From: an uncultured Eubacterium sp.
GTDB lineage: Bacteria; Bacillota; Clostridia; Peptostreptococcales; Anaerovoracaceae
Reading direction: 5' to 3'
Assembly (NCBI GenBank): GCA_900542385.1
Contig: UQNP01000046.1
Coordinates: 1 to 11,570 of the forward strand
DNA length: 11,570 nucleotides
Each line of letters opens with the position of its first letter. Within the stretch, counting starts at the first letter, position 1. Positions 1 through 11,570 of the stretch are shown here, in pieces. Below the pieces are notes generated by a model. The model had not been told where the DNA came from and did not search any database. It saw nothing but the letters and a program-made list of their open reading frames with translations. The position numbers and the translations under genes were made by a program.

Positions 1-2302
1 CAACCTGCTCTTTCATAAAAGATTTTACGGCATCATGCTTTTCAAAATAGGCGTTTATATATTCATCCGCCTCTTTTCTCGTTATATTCAGCTCAGAAGA
101 AAGTCCGAAGGCGCTCATGCCGTAGATAACTCCGAAGTTCACAGCCTTAGCTCTGCTTCTTTCCTCAAGAGTTATTTCATCTTCAGGTATCCCAAGAACT
201 CTTGATGCTGTAGCCCTGTGTATGTCTTCTCCGTTATTGAAGGATTCTATGAGAGATTCATCTCCCGACATGTGCGCCAGCACCCTCAGCTCGATCTGGG
301 AATAATCCGCACCGACAAGGACGCAGTTTTCATTTTCAGGTATGAAGGATTTTCTTAGCTGTCTGCCCAGCTCCTGTCGAATAGGGATGTTCTGAAGATT
401 AGGCTCTGTACAGCTTATTCTTCCTGTAGTCGTTACAGTCTGATTGAAATGGGCATGCACTTTACCGTCTTCTCTGTTTATGAGCGGTATCATCCCGTCC
501 ACATAAGTACTCTTGAGCTTGGAAAAAGTCCTGTACTCCAATATTGCCGGAACTATGGGATGCTTATCCTTTATTCTCTCAAGTATATCTGCACTGGTGG
601 AATATCCTCGTTTTGTTTTTTTACCTGCCGGAAGATCAAGATCCTCAAACAGTATTTCTCCAAGCTGCAGCGGAGAATTGATATTGAAATCTTTACCCGC
701 GTATCCGTATATCTTTCGACTGGTTTCATCTATTTTTTCAGTCAGCTCCTCACCGAACTTGAAAAGAGTCTGCCTGTCTACTCTGAATCCTTCCTTTTCC
801 ATGCCGGCCATTACTTCCACCAGCGGAAGCTCTACATTGTACAGGACATTCTCAAGTTTTTCCGCTTCTATTTTTTTCTGCTGAAGCTTCTTAAGATTCA
901 GCACAGCAACACATACTTCAAGGCCGTAATCCATGCAGTTCCTGACAGCATCGGAAAACATATCCAGCTGGCTGTTCCTCTCGTCAAAAGATTTCTCATC
1001 TTCCACGGTTATATGAAAATACTCGTTTGTAAGAGCCGAAAGGCTGTAATTGCTCCTTCCTGAGTCCAGTACATACTGTGTTATTTCCGTATCGAAGGAA
1101 GTATTGAAGCTCTTCACCCCGCTGTACATTAGCAGAAAATAATCATTTTTTAATCCGTGACCTTCAAAAGACAGATCCTGTGAATCAAGCCACTGGAAAA
1201 ATTCATCTATTTTACCACATTCAAAATAATAGTACATTCTGCCGCTCAGCACAGCCAGCCCGTCAGCTTTCGCTCTTTCAAGATGTGAGCCGTTTCCAAA
1301 AACTTTTATTATAACTGTCTTTTCAAGTTCTATGTTTTTAAGCTCATCGGCACTTTGTACAAGCACCTTTTCAAAATCCTTGGGATCTGTAATGTCAGTA
1401 TTTTCTGCGGCTTTCTCGGCACTGTATCTGTCCTGCGCCGAAACATTGAGCTTCTTCAGGAATTTATTGAACTCCAGCTTCGTATACAGAGGAATCAAGG
1501 CGTCGTAATCCGGTTCTCCAAGCACGTATTCATCAAAATCTATATCTATAGGTACGCTTGTGTTGATCGTGGCCAGTCTTTTGCTCATCACCGCAAGCTG
1601 GATATTATCCTCCACCTTTTTCCTCGTTCCCGCAGGAGTTATATCCTCTGTATTCTGCATCATATTTTCTATGCTGCCGAACTGTTTTATCAGCTTGGAC
1701 GCAGTTTTCTCTCCTACTCCCGGTATCCCCGGTATATTGTCGGACTGATCTCCCATAAGGCCTTTATAATCTATAAACTGTTTAGGCGTAAATCCATATT
1801 TTTCGATCATCGCCTGTTCATCGTATATCTCAAATTCAGATACACCTTTTCTCGTTATTATGACTTTGGTTATTTCAGATGCCAGCTGCAATTCATCTTT
1901 GTCTCCCGTAACGATATAGGGCTCAAAACCTTCTTTCTCAGCTCTTTTTACTACTGTGCCGATGATGTCGTCAGCTTCAAAGCCTTCCATCTCTATCTGC
2001 TTTATCTTCATTGCCGCCAGGACATCTTTCAGAAGCGGTATCTGCATAGCAAGCTCCGGCGGCATTTTCTTTCTTCCCGCCTTATATGCATCGTACTCCT
2101 TGTGTCTGAAAGTAGGCGCTTTCATATCGAAAGCCACCGCCATATGAGAAGGTTCGTAATCACGCTTTATCTTCTCGAGCATATTTATAAATCCGAATAT
2201 ACCATGGGTAAATATTCCCTCCTTGGTTATCATCGGATTTCTCATGGCATAATACGCCCTGTTTATAAGGCTGTTTCCGTCTATAACTGCTATCCTACTC
2301 AT
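1..2302 (-). CDS. polA: DNA polymerase I (3' end outside the window)
   Basis: Family A DNA polymerase for Okazaki-fragment processing and repair. The frame is open from ATG 2302 to the window edge, 767 codons with no stop. The N-terminal 5' nuclease (about residues 1-290) shows the opening MSRIAVIDGNS, EADDIIG, VTGDKDELQL and the helix-hairpin-helix GDQSDNIPGIPGVGEKTAS. A 3'-5' exonuclease-like domain (about 300-470) follows, but it is degenerate. Asp387 aligns with the E. coli Asp424 position. The first D-x-E motif is absent, and the last catalytic Asp appears to be Gly460 in MDYGLK. The polymerase domain has motif A DYSQIELR (Asp666) and motif B RSRAKAVNFGVIYG (Lys719). Motif C and roughly the last 110-130 residues lie beyond position 1. 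The start overlaps the peptidase stop as ATGA, with AAGGAG 5 nt upstream, so translation is probably coupled. Identity is certain; loss of proofreading is inferred from an alignment made by eye. Confidence 0.96.
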   Translation of the reverse strand, partial: MSRIAVIDGNSLINRAYYAMRNPMITKEGIFTHGIFGFINMLEKIKRDYEPSHMAVAFDMKAPTFRHKEYDAYKAGRKKMPPELAMQIPLLKDVLAAMKIKQIEMEGFEADDIIGTVVKRAEKEGFEPYIVTGDKDELQLASEITKVIITRKGVSEFEIYDEQAMIEKYGFTPKQFIDYKGLMGDQSDNIPGIPGVGEKTASKLIKQFGSIENMMQNTEDITPAGTRKKVEDNIQLAVMSKRLATINTSVPIDIDFDEYVLGEPDYDALIPLYTKLEFNKFLKKLNVSAQDRYSAEKAAENTDITDPKDFEKVLVQSADELKNIELEKTVIIKVFGNGSHLERAKADGLAVLSGRMYYYFECGKIDEFFQWLDSQDLSFEGHGLKNDYFLLMYSGVKSFNTSFDTEITQYVLDSGRSNYSLSALTNEYFHITVEDEKSFDERNSQLDMFSDAVRNCMDYGLEVCVAVLNLKKLQQKKIEAEKLENVLYNVELPLVEVMAGMEKEGFRVDRQTLFKFGEELTEKIDETSRKIYGYAGKDFNINSPLQLGEILFEDLDLPAGKKTKRGYSTSADILERIKDKHPIVPAILEYRTFSKLKSTYVDGMIPLINREDGKVHAHFNQTVTTTGRISCTEPNLQNIPIRQELGRQLRKSFIPENENCVLVGADYSQIELRVLAHMSGDESLIESFNNGEDIHRATASRVLGIPEDEITLEERSRAKAVNFGVIYGMSAFGLSSELNITRKEADEYINAYFEKHDAVKSFMKEQV

Positions 2303-3282
2303 TTATTCTCCTTCTTTATATCGCTCATAGCTTTGAATCCGTACGCTGACCTCGCATATCTGACACCGTTGTTTACAGCCTTGCCCATCACATATGCTCC
2401 CAGGTCTCCAAGCGCATCCTGATTTACTTCCACGTCGCCTCTGGCCATAAAAAATATAGTATCTCCGTCTGCCGACGTGTGCACCGGCTTTATAGCATCG
2501 GCGTATCCATCGTGAGCCATCGACGCAAGTTTGCTGCACTGTGCTTTTGAAAGGGCTGCGTTCGTTATTATACATCCTATGGTCGTATTGCCTTTGAACA
2601 CATTTTTCTTAGCTTCTGCCGAGTTCCACATCGCATTCCGTGTGCTGACGATCCTGCTTCCGTCTTCGCTCAGAAGTCCCGCCATAGGCTCTCCCGTATC
2701 AACATCGTACACATCTCCCAGACAGTTTACAGCAACTACCGCGCCCACTTTCAGATTCCCTGTCTTCAATGCGTAAAAGCCCAGTCCGCCTTTCATCAGC
2801 CGTTCTTTACCCATGAATTTTCCCACTGTAGCGCCTGTGCCTGCTCCGTAATTTCCCATCTGCGGCTCGTTTTTTTCAGATTCAATGCAGGCGTTGTATC
2901 CCATATCTGCATCAGGCCTGCACTTAGCATCAGCGGTGATAAGATCAAAAAGACATGCGCCGGATACTATAGGGACCTGCCCTGCACCTGTATCAAAGCC
3001 TATTTCATTTTCTTCAAGATACTTCATCACTCCTCCTGAAGCATCAAGACCGAATGCGCTTCCTCCCGAAAGCACTACTGCATACAAAGCTTCGCACATA
3101 CTGACAGGAGAAAGCAGATCCGTCTCTCTCGTGGCGGGACCTCCTCCTCTTACATCTACACCGCCTACTGCGCCTTCATCGCATATTATTACAGTGCAGC
3201 CTGTACCTCCTCTGACATTTTGAGCATTGCCTATACGAAAACCTTCTATACTGTTTATGCTTATCTCTTCTATAACACTCAC
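2299..3282 (-). CDS. P1-family (DmpA/ThnT-like) self-cleaving peptidase, 327 aa
   Basis: N-terminal-nucleophile hydrolase of MEROPS family P1 (L-aminopeptidase/D-esterase group). These enzymes cut themselves into alpha and beta chains, and the new N-terminal residue becomes the nucleophile. Visible family features are VGGVDVRGGGPATRETD (about residues 39-55), LSGGSAFGLDASGGV (71-85), GNYGAGTGATVGK (143-155) and GNTTIGCIITNAALSKAQ (231-248). By analogy with ThnT, the expected cleavage is Asn232/Thr233, making Thr233 the nucleophile; this is inferred. There is no signal peptide, so it is probably cytoplasmic. The start is GTG at 3282, with AAGGAG 7 nt upstream, only 17 bp after the FNT stop. 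Its TGA overlaps the polA ATG. The natural substrate is unknown; D-amino-acid peptides or amides, or beta-peptides, are known for relatives. Length is normal for bacterial members. Confidence 0.92.
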   Translation of the reverse strand: MSVIEEISINSIEGFRIGNAQNVRGGTGCTVIICDEGAVGGVDVRGGGPATRETDLLSPVSMCEALYAVVLSGGSAFGLDASGGVMKYLEENEIGFDTGAGQVPIVSGACLFDLITADAKCRPDADMGYNACIESEKNEPQMGNYGAGTGATVGKFMGKERLMKGGLGFYALKTGNLKVGAVVAVNCLGDVYDVDTGEPMAGLLSEDGSRIVSTRNAMWNSAEAKKNVFKGNTTIGCIITNAALSKAQCSKLASMAHDGYADAIKPVHTSADGDTIFFMARGDVEVNQDALGDLGAYVMGKAVNNGVRYARSAYGFKAMSDIKKENK

Positions 3283-4201: not shown

Positions 4202-4230
4202 ATTATACCATATCGGCTCTATTTTGTCAT
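4202..4230 (-). promoter_or_regulatory. Probable sigma-A promoter for the FNT-peptidase-polA operon
   Basis: On the minus strand, -35 ATGACA (4225-4230, 5 of 6 to consensus), a 17-bp spacer ending in TGG, and a perfect -10 TATAAT (4202-4207). The -35 box lies inside the last codons of htpG and the -10 just after its stop. The expected transcript start, near 4195, is inside or next to the terminator hairpin. The hairpin would then form the 5' end of the mRNA, or stop it early. Prediction from sequence only. Confidence 0.65.
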
Positions 4231-6123
4231 TAACCGGCATACAGCATTTGAAAATGCTACAGGATCTTCTATAGGCAGACCTTCTATCAGCAGAGCCTGA
4301 TCGTACAGAAGTTTTGCATACTCAGCCAGATCGTCCTTGTTTTCGTTATATACTTTACCGAGCACTTCAAATACAGGATGCTCAGCATTTATTTCGAGCA
4401 CGCGTTCTGCTTTTACTTTCTGATCTGTAGGCATGGAATTGAGGACTTTCTCCATCTCTATGGAAAGACCGCCCTTTGCGGTAAGACATACAGGATGACT
4501 CTTCAGTCTGTGAGTCAGTTTTACGTCGCTTACCTTTCCATCAAGAGCTTCTTTCATGCACTCAAGCATATCCTTGCTGTCCTCCGACTGCTTTTCATTT
4601 TTCTTCTTTTCTTCTTCGCTTTCTTCTATGTCCAGATCATCGGCAGATACAGACTTGAATTCCTTTTCTTTGAAATCGTGCATTACCTGAAGCGCAAATT
4701 CATCAACGTCGTCCGTCAGATACAGTATTTCATATCCCTTATCCTTAAGCAGTTCCGTCTGCGGAAGCTTATCGGTCTTTTCAGTATTTTCTCCTGCCGC
4801 GTAGTAGATGTATTTCTGATCCGGCTTCATCCTCTCCACGTATTCATCGAGAGTAACAAGTTTCTTTTCGCTCGAGGAGTAGAACATAAGAAGATCCTGC
4901 AGAGCTTCTTTGTTCATACCGTAATTATCGTATATACCGTATTTAAGCTGAAGTCCGAAGTTATTGAAGAACTCTGTATACTTTTCTCTGTCGTTTTTCA
5001 GCATCTGAAGCAGTTCGCTCTTTATCTTCTTTTCCAATCTCTTTGCTATCGCCTTGAGCTGTCTGTCATGCTGCAGCATTTCCCTTGAAATGTTCAGAGA
5101 CAGATCCTGCGAATCCACGAGACCTCTTACAAAACTGAAATAATCCGGCAGCAGATCGGCGCATTTATCCATGATCAAAACTCCCGAAGAATAGAGCTGC
5201 AGACCTTTTTCATATTCTTTAGTATAGTAATTGTACGGAGCTTTTGACGGTATGAAAAGCAGTGCCGTGTAGCTTACCACACCTTCAACGTCTGTATGTA
5301 TGACCTTGGCAGGGTCTGTGAAATCAAAGAATTTTTCTTTATAAAATTCATTATAATCTTCATCTTTGAGGTCATTCTTATTTCTCTTCCAGAGAGGAAC
5401 CATGCTGTTGAGCGTTTCAAGCTCGTAATACGTTTCATATTCCTGTTCCTCAGGTTTTTTATCTTCATCTCCCTTTTTCAGGCGATGTTTTTCAGCCATC
5501 ATCTTTATCGGGTAATGTATATAATCGGAATATCTCTTTACCAGTTCTCTGATCCTGTATTCATCCAGATATTCACTGTATTTCTCATCTTCCGTATCTT
5601 CTTTAAGCTTAAGTGTTATTTCCGTACCGTTCGATTCCTTATCTGCTTCTTTCACAGTATATCCGTCGGCGCCTGAGGATTCCCACTCATAAGCCGTATC
5701 TTCACCGTATGCTTTGCTCAGCACAGTTACCTTGTCGCTTACCATGAAAGCCGAATAAAATCCGACTCCGAACTGTCCTATGATATCTATCTCATCCTTT
5801 TTATCCATAGCAGCCTTAAAATCTAAAGATCCGCTTTTGGCTATAGTGCCAAGGTTTTTCTCAAGTTCCTCTTTGCTCATGCCCATGCCGTTATCGATTA
5901 TCCTGAGAGTCCTCTCCTCCTTATCTCTTTCGATCAATATGCAGAAATCATCTCTGGATATACCTGTATCTCCGCTGGTAAGTCCATGATAATAAAGTTT
6001 ATCTATAGCATCGCTTGCATTGGAAATGAGCTCCCTCAAAAAAATCTCCTTATGAGTGTATATGGAATTTATCATCAGATCCAAAAGTCTCTTTGATTCT
6101 GCCTTAAATTGTTTTTTAGCCAT
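4219..6123 (-). CDS. htpG: Molecular chaperone HtpG (Hsp90), 634 aa
   Basis: Bacterial Hsp90, a cytoplasmic ATP-dependent dimeric chaperone. The N-terminal GHKL ATPase shows [16 protein letters not shown] (Glu31, Asn35 and Asp39, the catalytic/Mg/ATP residues), DNGMGM (Asp77), GTIAKSGS and the lid [13 protein letters not shown], ending near GTEITLKL. The middle domain includes [51 protein letters not shown] split over about residues 310-350, and the C-terminal dimerisation domain runs to the end. A highly charged acidic/lysine stretch ([13 protein letters not shown]) sits between the middle and C-terminal domains. I place the start at ATG 6123, not at the in-frame ATG 6156. The latter lies within the CIRCE element and has no ribosome site, whereas AAGGGAG stands 7 nt before 6123 and the resulting N-terminus [18 protein letters not shown] fits the family. 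E. coli HtpG is 624 aa. Confidence 0.97.
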
Positions 6124-6145
6124 TTTATATCTCCCTTCAAATTTA

Positions 6146-6172
6146 TTAGCACTCATTATAAAAGAGTGCTAA
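6146..6172. promoter_or_regulatory. CIRCE operator (HrcA binding site) upstream of htpG
   Basis: Perfect match to the CIRCE consensus: TTAGCACTC (6146-6154), a 9-bp spacer ATTATAAAA, GAGTGCTAA (6164-6172). HrcA represses through this site and is released on heat shock with GroE help. It begins about where the htpG transcript should start and ends 22 bp before the chosen start codon. No hrcA, dnaK or groE gene is in the window. Confidence 0.97.
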
Positions 6173-6176
6173 TACT

Positions 6177-6205
6177 ATAATACGCCTGCTCCTGCCAAAA
6201 ATCAA
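6177..6205 (-). promoter_or_regulatory. Sigma-A promoter of htpG
   Basis: On the minus strand, -35 TTGATT (6200-6205), an exact 17-bp spacer, and -10 TATTAT (6177-6182). The predicted start near 6170 falls at the first bases of the CIRCE element, the usual geometry for HrcA repression. The CIRCE spacer also reads TATAAT on the minus strand, but it has no good -35 partner. Confidence 0.85.
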
Positions 6206-6216
6206 GTGCTGTATAT

Positions 6217-6242
6217 AAAAAAACGCCAAATCACAGATTTGG
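6217..6242 (-). terminator. Hairpin terminator formed by the second 28-bp repeat copy
   Basis: On the minus strand the 7-bp stem CCAAATC / GATTTGG with a 3-nt TGT loop is followed, after CG, by seven T (6217-6223). It would stop transcripts entering from the yebC/small-RNA side, 12 bp before the htpG -35 box, and so insulate the heat-shock promoter. The stem is fairly weak (A/T-rich). Confidence 0.7.
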
Positions 6243-6251
6243 GCAGGGCAT
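6224..6251. repeat. 28-bp direct repeat, copy nearest htpG
   Basis: Identical over 28 bp to 6308-6335. It contains the palindrome CCAAATC-ACA-GATTTGG followed by GCAGGGCAT. This copy abuts a run of seven A (plus strand) and doubles as a terminator on the minus strand. Confidence 0.97.
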
Positions 6252-6254
6252 TTT

Positions 6255-6291
6255 CCACAGTAGACCGCCACGCGCTGAAGCGCTGTGGTCT
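6255..6291. repeat. GC-rich hairpin between the two 28-bp repeats
   Basis: Stem CCACGCGC (6268-6275) with GCGC-T-GTGG (6280-6288), loop TGAA, one bulged T, extended outward by AGA/TCT (6262-6264 with 6289-6291). CCACAG at 6255-6260 can pair instead with CTGTGG at 6283-6288, so two exclusive folds are possible. No open reading frame or known RNA family is recognised. Confidence 0.6.
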
Positions 6292-6307
6292 TTGCGTTTG
6301 ACCTGCG

Positions 6308-6335
6308 CGCCAAATCACAGATTTGGGCAGGGCAT
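6308..6335. repeat. 28-bp direct repeat, copy nearest the small RNA
   Basis: Exact second copy of 6224-6251, offset 84 bp. It begins directly after the small-RNA terminator on the minus strand. Here the palindrome is not followed by a T tract, so this copy is not itself a terminator. Confidence 0.97.
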
Positions 6336-6363
6336 AAAAAAATCCCGAGATGCCGTCGAGGAT
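6336..6363 (-). terminator. Intrinsic terminator of the predicted small RNA
   Basis: On the minus strand ATCC-(T)-CGA pairs with TCGGGAT (7 bp with one bulged T, 7-nt loop CGGCATC) and runs directly into seven T (6336-6342). Together with the structured region before it, this marks the 3' end of a transcript that is not protein-coding. Confidence 0.75.
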
Positions 6364-6482
6364 ATAATTCACGCCCTATCTTTCAATAGGGGGGTGCCCT
6401 GTTTCCGCTTCTGTCGTCCTCACAGGAGGCATGACATAGGCTGACGAAAACGCAGGCTCCCAATGTCGCAATGTAGGTTGAA
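6336..6482 (-). ncRNA. Predicted structured small RNA, family not recognised
   Basis: No open frame of useful size, yet the segment is rich in local pairing and ends in an intrinsic terminator. On the minus strand, 5' to 3', I see three hairpins. The first is GACAT/ATGTC (6463-6467 with 6433-6437), enclosing an inner CTG-CG/CG-CAG stem with a TTTT loop (6441-6455). The second is TGCC-CTGT with ACAGGGCA (6422-6431 with 6395-6402, 2-nt bulge). The third is CCCTAT/ATAGGG (6386-6391 with 6374-6379). A 9-bp inverted repeat, TATAATTCA/TGAATTATA (6479-6487 and 6363-6371), brackets them. The 5' end is uncertain: TATAAT at 6482-6487 could be its -10, but its -35 is poor, and transcription could instead begin at the promoter near 6559-6587. 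I compared it by eye with SRP RNA, 6S RNA and T-box and found no convincing match. Confidence 0.5.
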
Positions 6483-6558
6483 TTATAATACCCTAACGCA
6501 CATTTCAGGATAATTTTATCGTTTTATTTTACATACATTTATTATATATTATACGTAA

Positions 6559-6587
6559 ATTATAATTCTGTGACACACAGAATTCAA
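6559..6587 (-). promoter_or_regulatory. Promoter with a palindromic spacer, downstream of yebC
   Basis: On the minus strand, -35 TTGAAT (6582-6587), a 17-bp spacer, and a perfect -10 TATAAT (6559-6564). It would direct transcription into the small RNA region from about 6552. The 21-bp palindrome at 6564-6584 fills the spacer. It starts 28 bp after the yebC stop codon. Confidence 0.55.
6564..6584. repeat. Perfect 21-bp palindrome: operator candidate or weak yebC terminator
   Basis: Arms AATTCTGTG and CACAGAATT around ACA (plus strand). As RNA it is a 9-bp hairpin with a 3-nt loop. On the minus strand it is followed only by the mixed ATAATTT, so it would be a weak terminator for yebC. As DNA it sits exactly between a -35 and a -10 box, where a repressor or MerR-type regulator could bind. 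It does not match the CIRCE, Fur, LexA or Rex consensus. Confidence 0.6.
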
Positions 6588-6612
6588 GACATTTTTTACG
6601 ACATATGTAGTA

Positions 6613-7347
6613 CTAAAGTTCTATGCTGTCGAGATCAACGCCGCAGTTATGATGTACCTTCTGAACATCGTCATTGTCTTCGAGGATATCTATCATTTTC
6701 TTGAGCATTTTCAGATCATGCTCATCCTTAGGTGTCGCCTCCATAGACGCCACGAATTCAACATCTGAATCGACGATCTCATATCCCGCATCTATGACTG
6801 CCCCATGTACTGCCGTATAATTTTCAGGTGTCGTCTGGATCTCATAGCTGTCATCATGAGTGATCATATCGTCAGCTCCAGCCTCGAGAGCTACTTCCAT
6901 GAGAGCATCTTCATCTATGTCATCAGCTTTCTCGATTATTATTATTCCCTTTCTGGAGAACATATATGATACGCATCCCGGAGCCCCGAGGTTCCCGCCG
7001 TGCTTATCAAAAGTGGATCTTACAGCAGACGTAGTCCTGTTCCTGTTGTCAGTAAGAGCCTCAACTATAACTGCAACGCCTCCAACGCCGTATCCTTCAA
7101 AGCTGAGTTCTTCGTAAGTCTCTCCTTCCAGCTCGCCGGACCCCTTTTTCACAGCCCTCTTGATATTATCATTAGGCATTCCTATCGATTTAGCCTTTTC
7201 TATAGCAACTCTGAGCGTCGCATTATAATCAGGATCTCCTCCTGCCTTTGCCGCAACTATTATCGCCCTCGTATATTTTGTAAACATTGCCGCACGCTTT
7301 GAATCCTGCGCAGCTTTTCTTCCTGCTATTGTACCATGTCTTCCCAT
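6613..7347 (-). CDS. yebC: YebC/PmpR (TACO1) family translation regulator, 244 aa
   Basis: Member of the YebC/TACO1 family, long annotated as transcriptional regulators. Recent work on bacterial and mitochondrial members supports a ribosome-associated role in easing stalling at proline-rich stretches. The diagnostic N-terminus MGRHGTIAGRKAAQDSKRAA, then GGDPDYNATLRVAIEKAK (about 36-53), MPNDNIKRAVKKG (57-69), the central ALTDNRNRTTSAVRSTFDKHGGNLG and GCVSYMFSRKG, and the C-terminal DNDDVQKVHHNCGVD are all present, covering all three domains at normal length. The start at 7347 has AGGAGGTG 5 nt upstream. It is preceded by its own promoter (7389-7417), and no terminator is visible after the large gene upstream, so both read-through and independent expression are possible. 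Confidence 0.96.
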   Translation of the reverse strand: MGRHGTIAGRKAAQDSKRAAMFTKYTRAIIVAAKAGGDPDYNATLRVAIEKAKSIGMPNDNIKRAVKKGSGELEGETYEELSFEGYGVGGVAVIVEALTDNRNRTTSAVRSTFDKHGGNLGAPGCVSYMFSRKGIIIIEKADDIDEDALMEVALEAGADDMITHDDSYEIQTTPENYTAVHGAVIDAGYEIVDSDVEFVASMEATPKDEHDLKMLKKMIDILEDNDDVQKVHHNCGVDLDSIEL

Positions 7348-7425: not shown

Positions 7426-10400
7426 CTACAGGCTCTCCTTGCCTGCCGTCTGCAGCTTGTTCTGATTGTATTTCACCTTTTTGACCGCTTTTTCTCTGAT
7501 ACTTTCAGCACCGTGTGCTTCATGGATATGATCCTGATCCAGTCCCTGCTCTTTTTTAGCAAGATTTTTATGAGCTGTCGCCATCATCAATTTTATCCTG
7601 TTGAGCTGATTTACGTCAGAAGCGCCCGGATCGTAGTCGATGGCGGCTATATTAGCCATTGGATTTCTCTTTCTCAGCGCCTTCATCATTCCTTTTCCCG
7701 TGACATGATTAGGGAGACATGCAAAAGGCTGCATACATACTATGTTTTCGACTCCGTCATCTATCAGATCTACCATCTCACCGGTAAGCAGCCAGCCTTC
7801 TCCGCACTGATTGCCTATGGAAATTATTTCAGACGCTTTCTTCGCTATATTTTCTATGTACATAGGCTCATGGAAACGCTTGCTTTCCCTGAGTGCTTTT
7901 CTCAGCGGTTTTCTGAAATGCTCTATTACAGCGATAGCCGCTTTATTTCCCATCATCATAGCATAGCTGCCTGAAAGTGTTTTATGATTGAACTCTTTGC
8001 TGTGCATACCATAGAGGAGAAAATCGGTAAGATCCAACACGACAGCCTCACCGCCTTCTTTTTCTATGATATTGACTATATCGTTATTGGCATTCGGATG
8101 ATATTTTACCAATATTTCTCCGACAACGCCTACTTTAGGTTTTTTCACATCTAACAGCGGCAGATTGTCGAAATCCTCTGTTATGGCTTTAATGTTGCGC
8201 TTATATTCGCCGTAATTGCCTGTCACCAGATTTTCCTTTGCTTTCTGGGTCCACTTTTCATACAAAGCGTTTGCAGATCCCTTTTCAGCTTCGTACGGTC
8301 TTACAGCATACAGCACTCGCATCAGCAAGTCTCCGTACATAACGCCCATGAGACACTTTTTGATTATTACCGGTGTGAACTTGAATCCCGGATTGCTTTC
8401 AAGTCCTGCCATATTTATGGATATTACAGGTATCTGCTGCATATCCAGGTCCTTCAATGCTTTTCTCAGAAGAGACACATAGTTGCTCGCTCTGCATCCT
8501 CCTCCTGTCTGACTCATAAAAATACCGACTTTATCAAGATCCACATCTCCCGACTTGAGATAGGATATTATCTGTCCAAGTGTGACTATCGTAGGATAGC
8601 ATGCATCGTTGTTTATGTATTTGAGTCCTTCATCCACCGCATTTTTATCTACGGTAGGAAGTCTTTTTACTTTATATCCTTCACTTCCTATAGCTGCTTC
8701 AAGGAACTGGAAATGTATAGGGGACATCTCAGGTATCAAAATAGTGTAATCTTTTCTCATCTCTTTTGTGAAATACACTCTTTCGTATGAGCTGTTGTCC
8801 TCCTTGTGACGCACTTCATTCTTTTCCCTTTCATCCATAGCAGCTTTCAGGGATCTTATCCTTATCTTTGCAGCTCCCATGTTCGTGCCTTCGTCTATTT
8901 TGAGCACAGTGTAGAGCTTATTGTTTTTTTTCGTTATCTCTTCTACCTGATCAGTAGTAACGGCATCAAGACCGCATCCGAAAGAATTCAGCTGCACTAT
9001 CTCCACATCATCAGTAGTACCCACAAATGCAGCCGCCTTATACAGCCTTGAATGGTACATCCACTGATCCAGCACTCTTATAGGACGCGGCAGATTGCCA
9101 AGGTGCGATACCGAATCCTCCGTAAGTACGACCATATCAAAGGATGTTATGATCTTATCTATACCGTGATTGATCTCAGGGTCAAGATGGTAAGGCCTTC
9201 CTGCCAGCACGATAGCTTTTTTGCCGTTCTCCCTGGCATAAGCTAAAGCCTCCTCGCCCTTTTTCCTGATGTCTTCTTTCACTTTAAGATCCTCTGCTCT
9301 CGCAGCTTTTATCGCAGCTTTTATTTCACTCCTTGCGACGCCCTTATCGCCGAGCAGCTTGTAAAGCTCTCTTTCAAGATAATCATCGTTGTCATACGGA
9401 AGGAAAGGATGAGAAAACACTACTTCGTTCTCTTCGAATATATCATCCATATTTCCTGCTATAACTTCCGGATATGTGGCAACTATAGGACAGTTGTAAT
9501 GGTTAGGTGCGCTTTCATCTTCTATGCGCTCGTAGTTTATGCTCGGATAGAATATCCATTTCAGGCCGTTCTGTACGAGCCATTTAACATGACCGTGCAC
9601 CATCTTGGCAGGATAGCATGCCGTATCGGAGGATATGGTCTCCATACCCTTCTCATACATTTCTTTGCTTGATGTAGGCGAAAGCACTACTCTGTACCCC
9701 AGTTCAGTGAAAAATGTATGCCAGAACGGATAGTTCTCATACATATTGAGCACCTTAGGGATCCCGACAGAGCCCCTTGCAGCTTTTTCCTCCGGAAGAG
9801 GATCATACCCGAACAATCTCTCAAATTTATACTCATAAAGATCAGGAATACGGTTTTCCTCTGCGGAAACCTTTCCCTCACCTCTTTCACATCTGTTGCC
9901 TGTGAAGAATCTGCTTCCGTCGTTGAATTTGTTTATGGTCATCATGCAGTTGTTTTCACATCCTCTGCATCTCACATGACTTATATCTACGCTGAAAGCA
10001 TCTATCTCATCAGGTTTAAGCAAAGTCGAAACATCATCAGCAGAAGAGTTGTCTCTTGCTATCAGTGCTGCTCCGTACGCTCCCATAAGTCCTGCAATAT
10101 CAGGTCTTACTATCTCCTTGCCCAGTATATCCTCTATGGCTCTGAGCACTGCATCGTTGAGGAAAGTTCCTCCCTGTACTACTATTTTATCTCCTGCATC
10201 CTCCGGATTTCTCAGCTTTATTACTTTATAAAGCGCATTTTTGATCACAGAATAAGAAAGCCCCGCAGATATATCTCCGATGGTCGCTCCTTCTTTTTGA
10301 GCCTGCTTTACCTTTGAATTCATGAACACGGTACATCTCGTTCCAAGATCCACCGGCGAATCTGCAAATAAAGCTTCCGACGCAAAATCTTTTACATCCA

Positions 10401-11570
10401 TGTTTACAGACTTTGCATAAGTCTCTATAAAGGACCCGCATCCCGAAGAACATGCTTCGTTGAGCATTATGTTATATATAGCTCCGTCCTTTATCCTCAT
10501 GCACTTCATATCCTGTCCGCCGATATCGAGGATAAAATCAACTCCCGGCAGGAATTCCTCCGCCGCTTTATAATGCGCCATCGTCTCTATCTCACCAAGA
10601 TCGGCTTTGAACGCAGCTTTTATAAGGCCCTCGCCATATCCTGTAGTTGTGACTTTAGCTATATATGCGTCCTCAGGAAGCAATGAATACATTTCTTTGA
10701 GCATATTCATCGTAGCTTCCAAAGGCTTTCCTTCGTTATTTTTATAATATGAATAGAGAAGATTTTTATCTTCATCTATAAGGGCCGCTTTAGCAGTAGT
10801 CGAGCCGGCATCTATTCCGAGGAACACCCTGCCCTTAGCATCCTTTATATTTTTTCTTTTTATCGTATGCTGCTGATGTCTGCTCTTGAATTTTTCATAA
10901 TCCTCCTCATCTTTGAAAAGAGGAGCCGTATGCTTCGTGTCTGAAAGCGCCGACGGATCAGCATTTTCAATTTTTTCTATTATATCTGCAAACTGCACCT
11001 CATCGTATTTTGCAGAATTTATCGCAGCCCCTATGGCGACGAAGTACTCCGAGTTTTCAGGGAATATTATCTCATCTTCTTTTAAGCCGAGCGTCTCTAT
11101 AAACCTGACGCGAAGTTCTGAAAGAAACGAAAGCGGTCCTCCAAGGAATGCAACATTTCCCTTTATAGTATGTCCGCACGCCAGTCCGCTTATGGTCTGA
11201 TTTACAACCGCCTGAAATATTGATGCCGCAAGATCCTCTATGGATGCGCCCTCATTGATGAGCGGCTGTATGTCAGTCTTTGCGAATACTCCGCATCTGG
11301 CGGCAATAGGATATATCATCTTATGTTTTTTAGCGGCTTCATTGAGTCCCATAGCGTCTGTATCCAGCAAGACTGCCATCTGGTCTATGAAAGCTCCGGT
11401 GCCTCCGGCGCATGTACCGTTCATCCTCTGCTCTATAGTCTGTCCGTAGAACGTTATCTTGGCATCTTCTCCGCCAAGCTCTATAGCAACGTCAGTCCGC
11501 GGTATCAGCTTTTCCACAGCCGCACTGCAGGTTATAACTTCCTGTTCAAAAGGTATGCCGAGGATCTTGG
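7426..11570 (-). CDS. Giant 2-hydroxyacyl-CoA dehydratase activase-type iron-sulfur protein (5' end outside the window)
   Basis: Fusion related to the ATP-dependent activators HgdC/BadF/BcrA and their dehydratase partners, which drive low-potential electron transfer in anaerobes. The frame stays open to the window edge (1381 codons visible). The GTG at 11517 is an internal Val, because the upstream codons read [17 protein letters not shown], so the true start and the first phosphate-binding motif are missing. Numbering from that Val: activase module 1 to about 170 has CAGGTGAF (Cys36) and RCGVF (Cys75). Activase module 2 (231-488) has [27 protein letters not shown] (Cys356/360) and RCTVF (Cys395). 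A Cys cluster CRGCENNC (517-524) plus Cys543 follows. A DUF2229-like module (588-870) has DTACYPAK (Cys634) and FGCGLD (Cys848). A second dehydratase-like module (924-1300) has DACYPT (Cys973), GGGCRAS (Cys1008), QCGEG (Cys1238) and FACLPN (Cys1267). The C-terminal tail is charged. Substrate unknown; no CoA-transferase or separate dehydratase gene is in view. Confidence 0.9.

Follow-up and report, generated by a model that had tools for sequence, protein, structure and literature searches.

We identify a 6S RNA (SsrS) gene on the minus strand of DNA from an uncultured Eubacterium, lying between yebC and htpG at positions 6514-6338 of the window, by which we mean the whole 11,570-nucleotide stretch that was analysed. 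We assign a probability of about 97% to the best explanation of this locus, namely that it encodes 6S RNA in a Clostridia-like bacterium; the promoter-mimicking mechanism is one that we infer from the RNA family. The structured minus-strand RNA is real but of an already-known kind, an ordinary 6S gene with good support. Its membership of the family rests on sequence, structure, covariation, a template block, and occurrence in relatives. RF00013 (6S RNA, SsrS) was the sole match at the gathering threshold in the window (cmscan, Rfam 15); it spans the complete model (1-187 of 187), reaches 69 bits (gathering score 46.4; E 2.8e-12), and defines an RNA of 177 nt. An earlier note on this DNA had left the RNA unassigned, finding no likeness by eye to 6S as a whole, and held that a confident match to a known family would make it real but not new. 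The Rfam search that it proposed returned just such a match and overturns the reading as an unassigned RNA. The note's view that this is a structured, stand-alone RNA working in trans rather than a riboswitch fits the 6S identification.

The extent of the RNA was where the earlier description went astray. It had been placed at 6336-6482, an interval that omits 32 nt of the 5' end, as the RNA extends to about 6514. The 5' partner of its 3' end, reported as absent, lies within the omitted part: nt 4-24 (about 6491-6511) form a closing stem with the 3' end containing CGGCATCTCGGG. Because the interval stopped at 6482 and so removed this strand, the RNA seemed unfamiliar. The case shows how a familiar RNA can go unrecognised when half of its closing stem is cut away. 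The full 177 nt fold with a minimum free energy of -60.7 kcal/mol (z -3.27; 1 of 200 shuffles as good), against z -0.57 for the truncated 147 nt of 6336-6482 (51 of 200 shuffles as good). The minimum free energy fold of the full RNA has the 6S shape of closing stem, large 5' bubble, 3' bubble hairpin, and apical stem; the closing stem, large central bubble, and apical stem are present in this fold, in the RNAalifold consensus, and in the pair counts. Much of what had been seen by eye survives in this structure. ORFs of at least 60 aa are absent between yebC and htpG, in line with the claimed lack of coding capacity, and the three hairpins are recovered in the fold of the stretch as the apical stem, the 3' hairpin, and the bulged terminator hairpin. 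The 9-bp bracketing repeat, described without coordinates, probably corresponds to the helix of nine pairs that flanks the central bubble (nt 28-36). The 11-nt string CGGCATCTCGG is present on the minus strand from 6355, and its likeness to the 3' end of E. coli 6S was a hint in the right direction.

Covariation in relatives, which the note had suggested looking for, is found. The window and the 30 best-scoring of 91 family 6S matches were aligned with MAFFT on sequence alone, and RNAalifold placed 50 pairs on these 31 sequences; in 30 of the pairs, both partners have changed in one or more sequences. Bases were paired in 95.7% of alignment cells versus 87.0% after shuffling (0 of 500 shuffles reached the observed value) and 34-46% when the structure was slid by 1-3 columns, with a covariation score of 0.344 versus 0.169 shuffled and 0.052-0.075 slid; these controls favour the counted structure, which was derived from the same alignment. 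The closing helix comprises 18 pairs, 11 with double changes, and the weakest helix, in the apical arm, is paired in 82.0% of cells. Because the relatives were picked as best-scoring by the Rfam 6S model and the structure came from their own alignment, the covariation is not wholly independent of that model. We consider it very improbable that the RNA belongs to a different, unknown family and merely resembles 6S. Such a view could draw on the interval 6336-6482, which folds no better than shuffles once the 5' strand of the closing stem is missing; it conflicts with a full-length RF00013 match well over the gathering score and with covariation across the closing stem. It also conflicts with a permissive Rfam scan of 6150-6650 (E <= 1), where the only matches beyond 6S were two to mir-4520, which at 18.7 and 18.2 bits fall far under that model's gathering score of 90. 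A search of plasmid records with 6200-6620 gave no match.

The 5' central bubble of the 6S RNA carries AACCTAC (6473-6479, minus strand), the predicted product-RNA template, which is intact in all 60 6S sequences compared (the window and the 59 best-scoring loci). The predicted product would read GTAGGTT... on the plus strand from 6473, its start site being our own placement, and short product RNAs would be expected to begin GUAGGUUGAA, or one nucleotide earlier. If synthesis begins at the last C of AACCTAC (nt 42), the predicted sequence is GUAGGUUGAAUUAU, which places GG at 4/5 and AA at 9/10; an alternative start one nucleotide earlier moves GG to 5/6 and AA to 10/11. In the available part of PMC8414754, product RNAs of lactic acid bacteria have GG at 5/6 and AA at 9/10, those of E. 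coli and others have GG at 4/5, and a conserved A lies just upstream of the product start. A43 is conserved at 90% or more in the family 6S alignment. The chosen start, nt 42, is close to nt 40, given for B. subtilis 6S-1 in the portion of PMC8876501 consulted.

By analogy with the family, for which the accessible sections of PMC8414754, PMC8876501, and PMC3649979 describe a promoter-mimicking decoy released by product-RNA synthesis, we propose that the window RNA is likely a promoter-mimicking decoy for housekeeping RNA polymerase. Polymerase binding, product-RNA synthesis, and a growth-phase role are what we infer for it from other 6S RNAs. The rod-shaped RNA with its central bubble would look like an open promoter and would bind the holoenzyme of housekeeping sigma factor and RNA polymerase, whose promoters would then be transcribed less in stationary phase or under stress. 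During recovery, a short product RNA copied from the bubble by the polymerase would refold the 6S RNA and free the enzyme.

Comparison with known systems, as described in the parts of the cited papers available to us, places the window RNA close to B. subtilis 6S-1, which it resembles in length, closing stem, 5' central bubble, apical stem, the 3' bubble hairpin of the free RNA, and AA at 9/10 of the predicted product (PMC8414754, PMC8876501). It differs from the 6S-1 type in its position beside yebC and, with the chosen start, in having GG at 4/5 rather than 5/6. B. subtilis has two 6S paralogues (PMC8414754), whereas in the family and genus sampled here every genome with a 6S match has one copy. 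The 6S RNAs of lactic acid bacteria belong to the same family and share with the window a canonical structure and strong gene-order conservation, but usually lie between rarA and uspA, whereas the window 6S follows yebC (PMC8414754). Ms1 RNA of Actinobacteria is structurally related to 6S (PMC9130861) and likewise an RNA polymerase binder, but one that binds the core enzyme (PMC9130861, PMC4191392); the only gathering-level match of the window RNA is to 6S. The 177 nt of the window RNA are also close to the C. difficile 6S bands of about 200 and 175 nt (PMC3649979).

6S RNA is widespread in relatives. Sixteen loci were reached via htpG, the best of them (L001) with a copy 68% identical, and closer copies were found at later loci (up to 78%, L083). 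Matches to 6S at E <= 0.001 occur in 12 of the 16 genomes, 10 of them over the cut-off. With the same E limit but stricter filters, which lose weak matches, the family of G001 shows 6S in 91 of 119 genomes (85 over the cut-off) and the genus of G083 in 41 of 49 (40 over the cut-off), always as a single copy; for the class of G083 the count is 124 of 148 (117 over the cut-off), some genomes having two or three copies. The 28 family genomes that gave no 6S match under these filters include G001 itself.

The neighbourhood of the gene is conserved on its upstream side. In the window, yebC (6613-7347, minus strand; NCBIfam NF001030.0, 293.6 bits) precedes 6S and htpG (4219-6156, minus strand; NCBIfam NF003555.1, 721.7 bits for 4219-6123) follows it. 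Of 59 loci, the best-scoring ones only (30 from the family and 29 from the genus), 43 have a yebC that shares the strand of 6S and ends 6-191 nt upstream of it (median 44 nt). In L057 yebC lies about 1 kb upstream, and it was not found in the other 15, among them L034 and L087, whose upstream sequence is short. In comparison 6S loci, which span about 3 kb or less and are of unstated kinship, yebC was seen in 0 of 12 (L017-L028) and 0 of 30 (L156-L185). Since 43 of 59 family loci contrast with 0 of 42 comparison loci, the link between yebC and 6S looks like a trait of this bacterial family. What lies downstream varies (L029-L087) between htpG, a formate/nitrite transporter, polA, a homologue of the window ORF at 2299-3282, and none of these; yebC on the upstream side is commoner. 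The order yebC-6S-htpG with htpG within about 100 nt occurs in five loci (L056, L070, L072, L075, L085), whereas a dispersed repeat widens the distance from 6S to htpG in the window. Our literature search, which largely excluded subscription journals, found no paper naming 6S RNA and yebC jointly, and neither yebC nor htpG appears in the available main text of the C. acetobutylicum 6S paper PMC3879012; we regard the gene order as a modest, minor novelty. It could help to find divergent 6S genes that fall below the cut-off in relatives. Further upstream in the window, an ORF at 7426-11568 encodes at least 1363 aa, is open at the window edge, and matches acyl-CoA dehydratase activase (TIGR00241) in two stretches; a homologue is present in 32 of the 59 family 6S loci.

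The proximity of yebC bears on how 6S arises rather than on its identity. The RNA could be a piece of the yebC 3' UTR, cut from a yebC-6S transcript and lacking a promoter of its own, but we hold this to be unlikely. In seven of the 59 loci (L031, L035, L059, L060, L064, L082, L086), a gap of 6-18 nt separates the yebC stop from 6S, and their promoter-like sites do not stand out from shuffled sequence (38-88% of shuffles are equally good), as processing would have it. The promoter scan was, however, also silent at longer gaps (L076, L077, and L078 among them) and in L083, where no yebC is nearby (93% of shuffles as good), and its silence is for that reason weak evidence. In the window itself, the 98-nt gap between yebC and 6S contains a promoter-like site, the consensus match TTGAAT-17-TATAAT (6559-6587, minus strand), equalled in 2 of 100 mononucleotide shuffles of the upstream stretch. 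Processing is also disfavoured by exact copies of TATAAT within 70 nt upstream in 23 of 59 sequences, where mononucleotide shuffling predicts 5.8; these 59 comprise the window but not L087, whose upstream stretch is too short. More broadly, 6S may be a long-standing neighbour of yebC in this family that some species process, promoterless, from a yebC-6S transcript; we offer this tentatively and think it rather doubtful. If true, a global polymerase regulator would be tied in its level to that of a conserved gene of the YebC/PmpR family. The 98-nt gap of the window also holds a perfect 8-bp palindrome, ATTCTGTG-ACA-CACAGAAT (6565-6583; 0.01 expected in the window), which covers the spacer and the last two -35 bases of the best promoter-like site for 6S and may possibly be an operator or a weak terminator of yebC.

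On its other side the 6S RNA is bounded by a predicted intrinsic terminator (6336-6360, minus strand), which shares sequence with the 3' strand of the closing stem; its stem is bulged, and its seven T, as noted earlier, lie at 6342-6336. A typical 6S RNA, of roughly 200 nt or somewhat less, is a discrete transcript with a promoter of its own; what the window shows of this is a length of 177 nt, a terminator-like site, and a consensus promoter match. The RNA does end before the htpG promoter, as had been claimed: a promoter-like site for htpG lies at 6205-6177 (minus strand), followed by a perfect CIRCE operator, TTAGCACTC-N9-GAGTGCTAA, at 6146-6172 (mean 0.00 in 200 shuffles). Because the RNA stops at the terminator-like site before both, a riboswitch or leader RNA for htpG is ruled out. 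The CIRCE operator presumably places htpG under HrcA control. The likelier start of htpG is at 6123, to judge from the Shine-Dalgarno-like AAGGGAG that precedes it.

Between 6S and htpG, two identical 28-nt copies lie 84 nt apart (6224-6335) and belong to a dispersed REP-like palindrome that is separate from 6S, although one copy adjoins the T-run of the 6S terminator. The DNA of 6150-6345 finds matches in 28 of 197 family genomes, with at most four candidates scored per genome. A strict core pattern occurs in 14 of the 197, with 18 matches in G094 and 14 in G068, and its reversed control matched in none of them; at least two single core matches (G022, G195) look like chance. The 28-nt repeat had no exact match in viral contigs. 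A Y1 transposase (PF01797) as maker of the repeat was considered and shows no clear link, because it is absent from G068, which has 14 copies, and matches 2, 3, and 11 times in G083, G018, and G027, all of them free of the repeat. By eye, the inner stem is mostly AAA/TTT or GTA/TAC and the outer arms co-vary in many copies. In a plain count, 13 of 40 distinct copies, the window's included, carry a run of at least four A shortly after the core.
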